DNA of 64,000 bases, from NCBI GenBank assembly GCA_036275915.1, contig DASUCV010000004.1:1-64000 (forward strand). The letters run 5' to 3'. The position numbers and the translations under genes were made by a program. This document shows positions 14,088-19,877 of the stretch, piece after piece (the stretch's first letter is position 1; the number at the start of each line of letters is the position of its first letter). The notes under the pieces are model-generated. The model saw only the letters and a program-made list of their open reading frames with translations. It did not search any database and was not told the DNA's origin. Origin of the DNA: Candidatus Polarisedimenticolaceae bacterium. GTDB taxonomy: Bacteria > Acidobacteriota > Polarisedimenticolia > Polarisedimenticolales > DASRJG01.

Positions 14088-16454
14088 TTACCGAAGCGTG
14101 ACGACGGTCGCGCCGTCGCCCCCTTCGCCGGTTCCGCCGGGGCGGAACGACGCGACGAGCGGATGAGCCTTGAGATGGGCGCGGACCCCGACGCGCAAGC
14201 GCCCGGTGCCGTGGCCATGGACGATGCGGACCTCGTCGCGACCCTCACGCGCGCAGGCGTCCAGGAACTTGTCGACCTCGGGGAGCGCCTCGTCGACCGT
14301 CTTCCCGAGGAGGTGGAGCTCGAGCGGCGGCCCTTCGGGACGCTCGTCCGATGACGGGCGCCGCGAGGCGATGAGCGACGCGATCTTGGATTTCTTCTCC
14401 GGAGCCGGCGCCGCCTCCTGACCCGCGGCGGCGAGATCGGCCTTCGAGACCAAGAACGTCGCCGCCCCCATGCGGACGTCGATCTTCTCGCCGCGCACGG
14501 CGACGATCTCCCCTTCGCGCTCGAGCGAGATGATCCGCACGCGTGCGCCGGGCGCGATCGTGAGCGGCCCCGCCGCGACGGGGGCCGCCGGCGCGATCCG
14601 CCGCGCTTCCGCTCGAAGACGCGACTCCGCGCGGAACTGCGCGCGCTCCGCCTTCGCCCGCTCCTTCGCATCCTGGATGCCGGCGAGCTCCTTCTTCGAC
14701 TGCTGCCGGAACTCGCGCAGGGCGGCGTCCAGCGTCTTCGCTGTGGCCTCCCGGCGCTCCGAGGCTTCCGCGGCGGCCTTCTTCTCGAGCCGCTCGCGTT
14801 CTGCGGCGAGGCGGGCCTCCGCCTCGCGGAGACTGCCGGTCTTCTCCTCCGCTTCCGAGGTGAGCGCGCGCAGGCGCGCCATGTACTCCTCGGCGCGGAC
14901 ACCGGCGCCGACGAGCGCCCGCGCCCGTGCGACGAGCGACGCCTCGAGACCGAGCCGTGAGGCGACGTCGATCCCCGCCGACGATCCCGCGGCCCCGGCG
15001 AGCACGCGGTAGGTCGGCTTCAGCGTCTCCTCGTCGAACTCCATCGCAGCGCTCTGCACGCGCGGATCCGAGAACGCCCACGCCTTGAGCGCCGCGTGGT
15101 GCGTCGTCGCGATCGCCGTGATCTCGAGGTCGAGGAGGCGCTCGAGGACCGCCTGCGCGAGTGCGGCACCCTCCCCCGGCTCGGTCCCGGTGCCGATCTC
15201 GTCGAAGAGGAAGAGCGCGGGTGCCGCGGCCTCGTCGAGAAACCGCACGACCGCGCGCACGTGGCCGGAGAAGGTCGAGAGGTCCGCCGCGATCGACTGA
15301 TGGTCGCCGATGTCGGCGCGAAGCTGGCGGAAGATCGGGAGCGTCGCCTCGTCCGCGGCGACGGGCAGCCCGCACTGCGCCATGAGCACCGCGAGGCCGA
15401 CGGTCTTCAGGGCCACGGTCTTGCCGCCGGTGTTCGGTCCGGAGACGACGAGCACGCGATCGTACGGGTCGATCGCCACCGTGATCGGAATGCACCGGAT
15501 GCGGCGGTCGAGGAGCGGGTGACGGACGGCGTCCAGGCGGAGCGGTTCCGACGGGGCGAGGCGCGGCGTCGTCCCACGGATCGCGCGGGCGAACGCCGCC
15601 CTGGCCTGGACGACGTCGGCGCGGGCGAGGCCCGCGATCGCCGCATCGATCTCGGGAAGTCGTGCGCGATAGCTCTCCGTCCAACCGCGGACGATTCGGA
15701 GCGCCTCGGCCGCTTCCTGCTCCGCGAGACGGACCAGCTCGTTGTTCGTCGCGACCGAGGCGATCGGCTCGACGAAGAGGGTCTGCCCGGACGACGAAGC
15801 GGCGTGGACGATCCCTTCCACGGGGCGCGGCGCATCGGCGCGGACCGGGATGACGAAGCGGCCGTTCCGCTGGGTGACGAAGTCGTCGCGGACGACGCTC
15901 GCCGCCGAGGGATCGTGGAGGAACGCCTCGAGCTGCCGGCGCAAGCGCTCGCCGGCCTTGACGATCGCGACGCGCAGGCGCCGGAGCTCGGCCGAGGCGT
16001 CGTCCTCGAGGCGGCCGTCGGGTCCCACGAAGCGCACCACGTCGCGCGTCAGAGCGCCCAGGTCCGAAATGCCGTGCGACAGCGCCTGGAGCGACGGGAA
16101 CTCCCCGGCGTCGAGACGGCCGAGGCGCTTGCCGAGATCGGCGGCTTCCGCGAGCAGCGACGCGAGATCCCGCAGCGCCACGGGGTCGACGACGTGCCCT
16201 TCGATGCCGAGCGTGCCGCGCGCGGGCGCGGGATCGGGAAGAGCCGCCGGGATCAGGCGGCCGAACCGCTCGGCGTACCGGCCCGCCTCGTCGTTCGCCG
16301 CGTGCTCCGCCGCGAGCGCCGCAGCGTCCGCGATGGGACGCGCGTCCTGGAGCGCCGAGCGCCCGGGCGGACTCGCCGCGAAGCCGGCCGCGTAGGCGAG
16401 GACCTCCTGGAGCTCGAGCGCCTCCTCGGAGACGGCATCGAGATCGAACGTCAC
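14088..16454 (-). CDS. mutS2: MutS2 family ATPase with Smr domain
   Basis: 788 residues, GTG start overlapping the pgsA stop (GTGA). Order: helical core/clamp, MutS ATPase with Walker A SGPNTGGKT and Walker B LFLFDEIGTGTEP, a long Lys/Glu/Ala-rich coiled coil (about 510-620), a KOW-like linker, and a C-terminal Smr domain with ELHLLGKTVDEAL and HGHGTGRLR. MutS2 proteins act in anti-recombination or on collided ribosomes, not in mismatch repair. Length fits the family. Confidence 0.96.
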   Translation of the reverse strand: MTFDLDAVSEEALELQEVLAYAAGFAASPPGRSALQDARPIADAAALAAEHAANDEAGRYAERFGRLIPAALPDPAPARGTLGIEGHVVDPVALRDLASLLAEAADLGKRLGRLDAGEFPSLQALSHGISDLGALTRDVVRFVGPDGRLEDDASAELRRLRVAIVKAGERLRRQLEAFLHDPSAASVVRDDFVTQRNGRFVIPVRADAPRPVEGIVHAASSSGQTLFVEPIASVATNNELVRLAEQEAAEALRIVRGWTESYRARLPEIDAAIAGLARADVVQARAAFARAIRGTTPRLAPSEPLRLDAVRHPLLDRRIRCIPITVAIDPYDRVLVVSGPNTGGKTVALKTVGLAVLMAQCGLPVAADEATLPIFRQLRADIGDHQSIAADLSTFSGHVRAVVRFLDEAAAPALFLFDEIGTGTEPGEGAALAQAVLERLLDLEITAIATTHHAALKAWAFSDPRVQSAAMEFDEETLKPTYRVLAGAAGSSAGIDVASRLGLEASLVARARALVGAGVRAEEYMARLRALTSEAEEKTGSLREAEARLAAERERLEKKAAAEASERREATAKTLDAALREFRQQSKKELAGIQDAKERAKAERAQFRAESRLRAEARRIAPAAPVAAGPLTIAPGARVRIISLEREGEIVAVRGEKIDVRMGAATFLVSKADLAAAGQEAAPAPEKKSKIASLIASRRPSSDERPEGPPLELHLLGKTVDEALPEVDKFLDACAREGRDEVRIVHGHGTGRLRVGVRAHLKAHPLVASFRPGGTGEGGDGATVVTLR

Positions 16455-17065
16455 GGCGTCGCTTCCGGCCCGCGCTCCCGGAGATGCGCGACGGTGCGCC
16501 AGAGGTAGTGGAAGCCCGAGAGCAGGATGAGCACGAGCGTCGTCCTGATCGCGAACGGGACGATTGGGTTCGTCTCGAGGCGCGCGTTGAAGAGGAGCAC
16601 GAGACCGATCGTGACGAGCTCGGTGCCGGTCGTCACCTTCCCGATGACGGAGGGGAGGAACCGCTTCTGGCCGTACGCGAGGTGGAGCATGAGCGCGATC
16701 GCGAGAATGAGGCCGTCCCGGCTGATGACGAGGATCGTCAGGTAGAGGGGGATCCGGTTGACCATCGGGATCCCCTGGAACAGGTTCGGGTAGCGCGTCA
16801 GCAGGATGAACCCCGAGATGAGCAGCATCTTGTCGGCGGCGGGGTCGAGGTAGGCCCCCAGCGCCGTCCGCTGCCGGAAGACCCTTGCGATCAGGCCGTC
16901 GAGGAGGTCGGTCACCCCGGCGCCGATGAAGATCCCGAGCGCGAGCGAGAACCTCGCCTCCAGGACCGCCAGGATGAAGAACGGCACCGCGACCAGACGC
17001 AGGAAAGTGAGCTGGTTCGCGAGCGTCCAGTTCCCGACACGTGTCTTGAGCTCACCCGACCCCAT
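16451..17065 (-). CDS. pgsA: CDP-diacylglycerol-glycerol-3-phosphate 3-phosphatidyltransferase
   Basis: 204 residues. The CDP-alcohol phosphotransferase motif is complete: DLLDGLIARVFRQRTALG, then AYLDPAADK (D-G-x2-A-R-x8-G-x3-D-x3-D). About five or six membrane spans. It makes phosphatidylglycerol phosphate at the inner membrane. ATG is preceded by GGAG at a suitable distance. It is transcribed away from pilT and runs into mutS2. Confidence 0.92.
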   Translation of the reverse strand: MGSGELKTRVGNWTLANQLTFLRLVAVPFFILAVLEARFSLALGIFIGAGVTDLLDGLIARVFRQRTALGAYLDPAADKMLLISGFILLTRYPNLFQGIPMVNRIPLYLTILVISRDGLILAIALMLHLAYGQKRFLPSVIGKVTTGTELVTIGLVLLFNARLETNPIVPFAIRTTLVLILLSGFHYLWRTVAHLRERGPEATP

Positions 17066-17091
17066 GCGAACTCCGGCTTATATCACGTGGT

Positions 17092-17121
17092 TTGACTCCG
17101 CCCGGACCCGGCACCTATGTT
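17092..17121 (+). promoter_or_regulatory. Promoter of pilT
   Basis: TTGACT (17092-17097), an 18-base spacer and TATGTT (17116-17121). The -10 box overlaps an in-frame ATG at 17117, which argues that this ATG is not the pilT start and that translation begins at 17183, about 55 bases into the transcript. Confidence 0.6.
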
Positions 17122-17182
17122 CGGTCGGGCCGGGGTCCATCCCGGCGTCGAGGACGCCATTTCGGAGAAGGATGACACCCCG

Positions 17183-18637
17183 ATGACGATCGACGATCTC
17201 TTGCGCTTCATGGTCAAGCAGGAGGCGAGCGACCTCCACCTGAAGCCGATGCGCCCTCCCCTGCTCCGGATCAAAGGCAAGCTCCTCCCCTTGAAGACCG
17301 ACGCGCTCCATCCCGACCTCCTCAAGGAGATGATCGGCTCGCTCCTGAACGACCGGATGAAGGGCCAGATCGAAGAAAACTGCGCCGCCGACTTCGGGCA
17401 CAGCGTCCCGGGCGTGTCGCGCTTCCGCGCGTCGGTGTTCCTGCAGCGCGGGACCTACTCCGCGGTCTTCCGGCGCGTGCCGTTCGAGTTCCCGTCGATG
17501 GACGACTGGGGGCTGCCGCCGATCCTGACCGAGTTCACGAAGCTCAACCAGGGCCTCGTGCTCATCACCGGGCCGACCGGCTCGGGGAAGTCCTCGACGC
17601 TCGCGTCGCTCATGCGGATCATCGTCAACACGCGCCTGATCCACCTCATCACGATCGAGGACCCGATCGAGTTCTTGTTCAAGGACAACCTCGGGGCGGT
17701 CACCCAGCGCGAGGTGGGAACCGACACGCCGTCGTTCTCCGCGGCGCTCCGGAACGCGCTCCGCCAGGACCCCGACGTGATCATGGTCGGCGAGATGCGC
17801 GACCTGCCGACGATCCAGACGGTCTTGACCGCGGCGGAGACGGGCCACCTCGTCTTCTCGACCGTCCATACGAACAGCGCGGTACAGACGATCGACCGGA
17901 TCATCGACCAGTTTCCCGAGTCGAATCACCGTCAGATCCGCCAGCAGCTCTCGAACGTGCTCCAGGCGATCGTCTCCCTGAAGCTCGTCGAGAAGACCGA
18001 CGGATCGGGCCTCATCGCCGCGGTCGAGATCTTGCGGACGTCGCCGCGCGTGCAGAAGCTGATCCTCGAAGGGAACCTCGACGCCCTCGAGGAGGAGATC
18101 GAGAACTCGGTCTCGTACTACAAGATGCAGTCGATGAACCAGTCTCTCGCCTCGCTCGTGCTCAGGGGGGCCGTCGCGCGGGACACCGCGCTCGCGATCT
18201 CGATCAAGCCGGGCGACCTCGACCTCATGCTGAGGAAATTCCTCTACGCGGCGGAGAACCGCTCACCGGAGGAGGGACACGACATGGCCGAACCGCTGAG
18301 CGACTTCTCGAAGATCCTCGAGCTGCAGGAGATCAAGCGGCTCTACGACGAGCTCCAGGACAAGTTCCGGCAGGAGATCGGCGAGCGCGACGAGGAGATC
18401 GCACGCCTGCGATCCGAGGTGTCGCATGCCCAGCCGGTCGCCGCGGTCGGCAGCGAAGCCGACCACCTGCGCGCCGAGAACGAGCGTCTCGGGAAGCAGA
18501 TCCAGCTCGTGCGCCAGGAGTACGAGGCCAAGGTCGAGCGGATGAACGCGCGCCTTCGCGAGCTCTCGAGCACGGGAGCGCAGGCGCCCGCCGGCGGTTC
18601 TCCCGAGCCGGGCAAGGGTGGCTTCTTCCGCCGCTAG
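17183..18637 (+). CDS. pilT: PilT-like twitching ATPase with C-terminal coiled-coil extension
   Basis: 484 residues from the ATG at 17183, chosen because MTIDDLLRFMVKQEASDLH is the normal PilT beginning and because the promoter overlaps the earlier ATG. Walker A GPTGSGKSS (130-138), the acidic box around ITIEDPIEF, Walker B with VGEMRD, and His-box STVHTN are all present. PilT powers pilus retraction. The ATPase core ends near residue 360; the rest (about 117 residues) is a Glu/Arg-rich coiled coil ending in GKGGFFRR, which ordinary PilT lacks. A strong internal ribosome site precedes Met368. Confidence 0.94.
   Translation: MTIDDLLRFMVKQEASDLHLKPMRPPLLRIKGKLLPLKTDALHPDLLKEMIGSLLNDRMKGQIEENCAADFGHSVPGVSRFRASVFLQRGTYSAVFRRVPFEFPSMDDWGLPPILTEFTKLNQGLVLITGPTGSGKSSTLASLMRIIVNTRLIHLITIEDPIEFLFKDNLGAVTQREVGTDTPSFSAALRNALRQDPDVIMVGEMRDLPTIQTVLTAAETGHLVFSTVHTNSAVQTIDRIIDQFPESNHRQIRQQLSNVLQAIVSLKLVEKTDGSGLIAAVEILRTSPRVQKLILEGNLDALEEEIENSVSYYKMQSMNQSLASLVLRGAVARDTALAISIKPGDLDLMLRKFLYAAENRSPEEGHDMAEPLSDFSKILELQEIKRLYDELQDKFRQEIGERDEEIARLRSEVSHAQPVAAVGSEADHLRAENERLGKQIQLVRQEYEAKVERMNARLRELSSTGAQAPAGGSPEPGKGGFFRR
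18268..18286 (+). promoter_or_regulatory. Internal Shine-Dalgarno and in-frame ATG inside pilT
   Basis: GGAGGAGGG (18268-18276) stands 7 bases before an in-frame ATG (18284), exactly where the ATPase domain ends and the coiled coil begins. It could give a free 117-residue coiled-coil protein. The underlying codons also encode PilT residues, so this may be coincidence, but the site is among the best ribosome-binding sequences in the window. Confidence 0.45.
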
Positions 18638-18643
18638 GCGCGG

Positions 18644-18910
18644 CTAACCTTCGCGCCGCTCCGAGCCGTGCCCCGCGTGCGCGGCATCCTCCTCGCCGGC
18701 ACCCATGCGCGCGGGTCCGACGGTCGAGATCGCGTGCTTGAAGATCATCTGGTCGCCGTGGTGCGTCTCGAGCAGGATCGTGAACTTGTCGAACGCCCGG
18801 ATGCGCCCGACCAGGCGCTTGCCGTTGGCGAGGAACACGGTGACGAGCGCGCGCTCCTTGCGTGCCCGGTTGAAGAACTCGTTCTGGATGCCTCCGGTCT
18901 CGGTGTCCAT
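18644..18910 (-). CDS. hfq: RNA chaperone Hfq
   Basis: 88 residues with Sm1 (VTVFLANGKRLVGRIRAFD) and Sm2 (QMIFKHAISTV; the usual box is YKHAIS). It forms a ring hexamer that pairs small RNAs with mRNAs. A strong AGGAGG precedes the ATG at good spacing. miaA lies immediately upstream, the same order as in proteobacterial miaA-hfq. The last 20 residues are acidic and variable. Its stop is 6 bases from the convergent pilT stop. Confidence 0.96.
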   Translation of the reverse strand: MDTETGGIQNEFFNRARKERALVTVFLANGKRLVGRIRAFDKFTILLETHHGDQMIFKHAISTVGPARMGAGEEDAAHAGHGSERREG

Positions 18911-18944
18911 CGGGTCCTCCTGCGGACTCTCACGTGGGTCGAGT

Positions 18945-19877
18945 CTAACACGCGACGAAGCGGCGCCATGACGCCACGATCTCGCCGGCGAGCGCGTCCG
19001 GGTCGCCGGACGCGTCCATCCAGACAACGCCGGGCTCCCGCCGGAACCAGGTGCGTTGCCTCTTGGCGTACCGGCGCGTGGCGGTGACGATCGCGTCGCG
19101 CTCGGTGCCGAGATCGAGCCCGAGAGAGCGCGCGCGGAGTGCCTCGCGGTAGCCGATCGCCTTGAACGCGTTCGCGGATTCCGGCACCCCGGCGGCGAGG
19201 AGGTGCGCGACCTCCTCTTCGAGCCCGGATTCCAGGAAGCGGTCGACCCGGGCCGTGAGGCGGGCCGCGAGCAGGTCGCGGTCGAGCGTGAGGCCGATCT
19301 TGAGCGCGTCGTAGCGCTCCCCCGGCGTGGACCAGGTGCCGGCCGCCGCGATGCGGTCGCTCCAGATCGGGCCGGGCCCGGCGAGCTCCAGAGCGCGGAG
19401 GAGGCGCTGGGTGTCGGCGGGAGCGATCCGTGCCGCCGAGCCCGGGTCCCGGGCCGCGAGCGCGCCGTGGAGCCGCGCGGCGCCGAAGCGGGCCAGGAGG
19501 CGTCTCAGGCGGTCGCGTCGCGCCGCGTCACGCCCCGGCGCCGGGACGACCCCCTTGAGCAGGCCGCGGAGGTAGAGACCCGTGCCGCCGACGACGATCG
19601 GGACGCGTCCCCGCGCGGCGATCGCCGCCACGGCGGCGTCGGCATCGCGGACGTATTCGGCAAGCGAGTAGTCGTGCCGCGGGTCGACCGTGCCGACGAG
19701 CGCGTGCGGAACGCGGTGCCTCTCGTCGTCCGTGGGCTTCCCCGTGGCCGCGTCGAGGCCCCGATAGATCTGGAGCGCGTCGCAGCCGACGATCTCGCCG
19801 CCGAGCGCCTCGGCGACCTCGACGGCGACGCGCGACTTGCCCGTACCGGTCGGACCGAGGAGGACGAGGATCCTCAG
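18945..19877 (-). CDS. miaA: tRNA dimethylallyltransferase
   Basis: About 310 residues. P-loop GPTGTGKS near the N-terminus, the substrate region DALQIYRGLDAATGKPT, and the tRNA-binding box RRYAKRQRTWFRRE near the end. It isopentenylates A37 of tRNAs reading UNN codons. No ATG, GTG or TTG is available near the expected start. The best placed codon is a CTG at 19877 that overlaps the preceding stop as CTGA; the nearest GTG in frame is 40 codons upstream at 19997. Function is sure, start is not. Confidence 0.93.
   Translation of the reverse strand: MRILVLLGPTGTGKSRVAVEVAEALGGEIVGCDALQIYRGLDAATGKPTDDERHRVPHALVGTVDPRHDYSLAEYVRDADAAVAAIAARGRVPIVVGGTGLYLRGLLKGVVPAPGRDAARRDRLRRLLARFGAARLHGALAARDPGSAARIAPADTQRLLRALELAGPGPIWSDRIAAAGTWSTPGERYDALKIGLTLDRDLLAARLTARVDRFLESGLEEEVAHLLAAGVPESANAFKAIGYREALRARSLGLDLGTERDAIVTATRRYAKRQRTWFRREPGVVWMDASGDPDALAGEIVASWRRFVAC

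Follow-up and report, generated by a model that had tools for sequence, protein, structure and literature searches.

Does the gene at positions 17183–18637 of the window (the whole 64,000-nucleotide stretch analyzed here) encode one protein or two? An earlier note on this DNA had suggested that it may make both full-length PilT and a free coiled-coil product that starts within the same reading frame. The features to which this question refers are the following:

17183–18637, plus strand: full-length gene, an uninterrupted open reading frame (ORF) for a PilT/PilU-family ATPase with a C-terminal helical tail, 484 aa
17189–18211, plus strand: PilT ATPase domain, residues 3–343 (match to TIGR01420, pilT_fam; fold match to G. 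metallireducens PilT4)
18257–18304, plus strand: flexible, fast-changing linker with the internal start signals, residues 359–374 (loop in the AlphaFold2 model; linker alignment)
18268–18276, plus strand: internal Shine-Dalgarno (SD)-like sequence GGAGGAGGG, duplex energy −12.6 kcal/mol
18284–18286, plus strand: putative internal start codon ATG, Met368 (ATG or GTG in 72/72 orthologues)
18284–18637, plus strand: nested in-frame ORF for a predicted free tail protein, 117 aa, MAEPLSDF..., homologous to a separate 105-aa gene in genome G051 (L042)
18305–18574, plus strand: two long tail helices, residues 375–415 and 424–464 (AlphaFold2 model)
18617–18634, plus strand: C-terminal GGFFRR, within a conserved G-[FIL]-F-[RK]-[RK]-type end (alignments)

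The gene product is a PilT/PilU-family ATPase by score, motifs, and fold. Specifically, its TIGR01420 score exceeds the curated cutoff (397.5 versus 319.1 bits), which meets the criterion for the family, and its translation contains Walker A (GPTGSGKS) and Walker B (DPDVIMVGEMRD) motifs at positions that are mostly invariant in alignment A3. In addition, the AlphaFold2 model matches Geobacter metallireducens PilT4 (6OJX_A; E 3.1e-45, TMt 0.86), with TM-scores by target of 0.81–0.92 across the PilT4 chains listed, and the identity to this protein is about 44% across residues 5–352. Hexamer formation and pilus retraction activity are inferred. Two orthologues (L007 and L008) start at the same Met as the main start at 17183.

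The gene is flanked (14088–19027 in the window) by minus-strand mutS2-like and pgsA-like genes upstream and by a minus-strand hfq-like gene downstream; the mutS2-like and hfq-like neighbors also occur in Acidobacteria bacterium Mor1 (L043) and are absent at distant orthologues. Elsewhere, the source genome (G000) carries tailless PilT-like ATPases at C17:4939-5991, C4:96129-97178, and C24:77325-78335.

The ATPase had been thought to end near residue 360, with about 117 residues of coiled coil following it. The position holds, since the last ATPase helix stops at residue 358 in the AlphaFold2 model, and the tail is present and modeled as helical. However, the tail does not follow directly, as the loop at residues 359–374, which contains the internal start, comes between the two. 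This loop has a pLDDT below 50 at residues 365–368. In the full-length model, the C-terminus beyond the two tail helices is disordered, while the tail modeled alone forms a single continuous helix (residues 4–99). Because the start sits in a disordered linker, the nested product would be exactly the helical tail.

While the ATPase, the Walker motifs, and the fold are common to this protein and to PilT/PilT4 (TIGR01420; 6OJX), the matched PilT chains stop near residue 350–400 and show nothing that corresponds to the helical tail. The residues beyond the ATPase match scored above cutoff for no Pfam or NCBIfam family, and no SctQ or FliN family was among the Pfam and NCBIfam matches listed for the tail, so that sequence homology does not place the protein in the SctQ family. 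Matches to the tail in the PDB were generic coiled coils only, and an identity as HmpF (NF038350), a coiled-coil protein of pilus taxis, was rejected at 18 bits against a cutoff of 200, a match for which coiled-coil composition alone accounts. The G-[FIL]-F-[RK]-[RK]-type ending, found in most tails and missing in some lineages, might serve as a peptide that docks to the membrane or to a partner.

From 60 relatives searched, about 26 tailed orthologues with 47–78% identity were recovered, among many tailless paralogues. At E ≤0.001, a tail profile found matches in 84 of 396 Acidobacteriota genomes, the weakest of which are generic coiled coils, and a broader profile at E ≤1e-8 gave 59 of 395 genomes. 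In all but one of the 59, a single open frame covers both the tail and a PilT-like ATPase. The tail carriers include the cultured Acidobacteria bacterium Mor1 (L013/L043) and Acanthopleuribacter pedis KCTC 12899 (L044). Outside Acidobacteriota, 41 genomes yielded a single weak coiled-coil match, and no tail was found among 19 genomes of the phylum of G399, an empty result that is weak evidence.

We also observed two degenerate second PilT-like paralogues with a longer tail, L039 (G037:C1:3507000-3511000) and L040 (G011:C181:19000-23000), in which Walker A (GPGGSGRSS and GPPASGKSS, respectively) and the Walker B regions are altered. Both retain the internal Met, with weaker SDs (−6.1 and −8.4, respectively), and they are possibly regulatory pseudo-ATPases.

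As the earlier note had stated, GGAGGAGGG lies seven bases ahead of the in-frame ATG at 18284. Its computed duplex with the anti-SD (−12.6 kcal/mol) compares with −6.9 kcal/mol for the next best of 12 other in-frame Met codons tested, and with −6.4 kcal/mol at the main start. These energies rest on an assumed standard anti-SD, since an exact-pattern search detected no 16S 3′ end in the source genome (98% complete) or in most relatives tested; a standard anti-SD 16S tail was found only in G059. The rRNA may be missing from the genome. For this sequence alone, synonymous recodings often score equally well (fraction 0.52), since PEEG readily spells an SD. The inferred signal of selection on the SD rests on comparison across orthologues and not on this single sequence.

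Across the readable tailed Acidobacteriota orthologues, the homologous codon is ATG in 65/72, GTG in 7/72, and nothing else, and an SD-like sequence lies upstream of it in every case. The earlier note would have been refuted by orthologues that keep the coiled coil and lose the SD or the ATG; we found the opposite. The 72 comprise 68 non-identical orthologues placed by a script (62 ATG, 6 GTG) and four read separately (3 ATG, 1 GTG). The script took M first and then V within a seven-residue window, which could bias it toward finding a start; in the alignments, the start codon forms a single column, and the candidate is missing from no sequence. Every Val at the site (seven) is encoded by GTG, a codon used for 39% of Val across these genes, and this Val replaces Met in at least four lineages.

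Upstream of the start, the encoded residues are diverse (EEGHD, PGEES, REGT, RGGI, EGGSD, GGET). The motif GGAGG is found in either of two codon phases (25 and 22 cases), and at least nine peptides spell it, among them GG, REG, EEG, TEG, and REE. Between orthologues of about 50% identity, the linker sequence has been replaced almost entirely, with the start and the SD retained. Directly after the start, 65 of 68 sequences carry A, P, S, T, G, or V, compared with a frequency of 31% for small residues after the other Met codons of these genes. Judged from these sequences, such a bias would be expected if the site were a genuine N-terminus trimmed by methionine aminopeptidase (MetAP), since a residue of this kind permits Met removal. 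The near-invariance of the residue could also be explained by a need of the full-length protein for a Met in its linker. We give this explanation almost no weight, as the region is modeled as disordered, the Met is swapped only for the GTG-coded Val, and the conservation reaches the SD at the nucleotide level.

The strength of the SD was compared with that of synonymous recodings drawn with each gene's own codon usage, using the standard anti-SD. For the 68 sequences, the mean duplex energy is −10.26 kcal/mol, compared with −7.79 (standard deviation 0.26) for the recodings. Since relatedness inflates this test, it was repeated on diverged subsets. The 29 sequences below 70% identity gave −10.18 versus −7.79 recoded (z −5.9, 0/5000 recodings as low), and the 11 sequences below 60% identity gave −10.25 versus −7.30 recoded (z −4.6, 0/5000). 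For the remaining in-frame Met codons of the orthologues, the mean is −3.0, and fewer than 1% attain −10. In addition, the internal SD beats the best candidate main-start SD in 57 of 66 orthologues, a rough count because main starts are uncertain beyond near relatives.

A strong SD-like sequence within a gene might instead act as a translational pause that lets the ATPase fold before the tail is made, with the Met being incidental. Pausing at intragenic SD-like sequences is a known and debated idea (PMC5100845, PMC6107199), and the SD-like sequence does lie at a domain boundary in the AlphaFold2 model. However, pausing requires no start codon at the correct spacing, and it leaves unexplained the ATG or GTG in every orthologue, the exclusive use of GTG for Val, a second residue of the MetAP type, and the existence of the tail as a separate gene in G051. 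We therefore consider it very improbable.

In the distantly related G051 (L042), the pilT ORF closes at a TAA after 358 codons, an in-frame stop just ahead of the homologous ATG, and the tail forms a separate ORF (gcGGAGGAaattATG). The TAA is followed by ttagcGGAGGAaatt and then by the ATG of a 105-aa ORF, MAEEQDERVSYADYSVIDEYLKLK..., which is the tail homologue and has its own SD. With the stop in frame and only five codons from the ATG, very few changes would interconvert the split and fused forms. In a tree of the ATPase part, the G051 sequence falls, on a long branch, among tailless PilTs and outside the clade of fused sequences (99/95). By this comparison, which rests on one genome, the internal ATG is homologous to a real gene start. 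G051 is a 75%-complete assembly, the locus is on a short contig, and it is the only genome of its class; no further split pilT/tail locus was found among the 395 genomes. Three other candidates for split loci (G025:C26, G029:C49, and G018:C10) were rejected, having one internal stop and then a PilC-like ORF, no tail, or an unrelated ORF.

The simplest history, as read from these sequences, is probably that a pilT-tail gene pair fused and that the start of the second gene was kept, although the direction is uncertain because the single split genome has a long branch. Specifically, loss of the pilT stop codon would have fused the adjacent genes, the tail gene would have retained its own SD and start, and selection would have maintained this internal start across Acidobacteriota. 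The same fusion history (G051 and the tree) would also fit a start that is merely an unused leftover of the ancient event, but the start and the SD persist in a linker that has otherwise turned over, and the SD exceeds the prediction from synonymous recoding. Such a relic is in our judgment a remote prospect.

Altogether, we favor the reading that a nested second start was kept from a fusion and that the free tail joins the motor, as the best explanation overall (probability about 0.75). Initiation at 17183 would yield a PilT-type ATPase that forms hexamers and bears a helical tail, and initiation at 18284 would yield the tail alone. The production of both proteins from one gene, as first suggested, is supported by the conserved start and SD and by the separate gene in G051, and we hold it to be highly probable; use of the start by ribosomes in cells is an inference.

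What the free tail would do is less certain. Most likely, it would associate with PilT protomers through their tails and so add a non-covalent subunit to the motor. Since other gene neighbors are not conserved, PilT is the likeliest partner, and since the tail and PilT are separate in G051, the tail can work unbound there, if it works with PilT. As a mode of action, co-assembly stands at about even odds in our analysis, and both binding and stoichiometry are inferred. The free tail could alternatively be made and work apart from PilT, as a scaffold, as a localization factor, or by titrating a tail-binding factor. Here the G051 tail, which is not covalently joined to PilT, and the conserved basic-aromatic C-terminus, which could be a docking or membrane peptide, are consistent with such a role. 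Against it, every strong match to the tail is in the same gene as a PilT-like ATPase or immediately follows one, and a comparison of gene neighborhoods among the orthologues revealed no conserved partner gene beside tailed pilT. We regard a role apart from PilT as possible, though less likely than not.

The favored reading, a nested start with a tail that joins the motor, has precedents in other machines. In type III injectisomes, an internal in-frame start in SctQ (YscQ, SpaO, Spa33, HrcQ) gives a C-terminal product, SctQ-C, that binds the long form and is needed for assembly or efficiency (PMC4295842, PMC13059759). For YscQ, surplus short form did not titrate the long form away. SctQ and the tailed PilT are unrelated proteins, and the short form here is the helical tail of an ATPase for which neither binding nor expression has been shown. 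In the flagellum, the corresponding FliM and FliN exist as two proteins, resembling in this respect the split form in G051. Of the two modes that the earlier note had raised, co-assembly is favored over titration by the precedent of SctQ and by the lack of a covalent link in G051, although this too is a matter of inference.

Similarly, in-frame internal initiation within cas8b, with a possible upstream SD, gives rise to the C-terminal subunit Cas11b (PMC11899642). Cas11b belongs to a CRISPR effector and was demonstrated by mass spectrometry peptides and a Met mutant strain, whereas the PilT tail product is inferred. Of the marks of SctQ/Cas11-type systems, a conserved internal start codon with an SD is met here (72/72 and the SD null tests), and a C-terminal product that exists as its own gene is met in a single genome, G051. 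For PilT or PilT4, no report of an internal start was found in the open-licence PMC papers searched, in keeping with the earlier note's belief that it was undescribed; the subscription literature lay outside the search. Nested in-frame C-terminal subunits are a known kind of device. What appears new is to find one in a pilus ATPase, spread widely through a phylum and with a split form that survives.

The motors of type IV pili are regarded as homohexamers of a single product, or as PilT with PilU. In Acidobacteriota, a single gene, descended from an ancestral operon of two genes, may instead supply the motor with both tailed PilT and free tail subunits, the latter setting hexamer assembly, localization, or activity, a picture that we find as plausible as not. 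If true, the retraction machinery of this large and little-studied phylum would gain a further component in the form of a conserved nested subunit, and the SctQ-type strategy, in which two genes are fused and the second start is retained, would have arisen in an unrelated machine.
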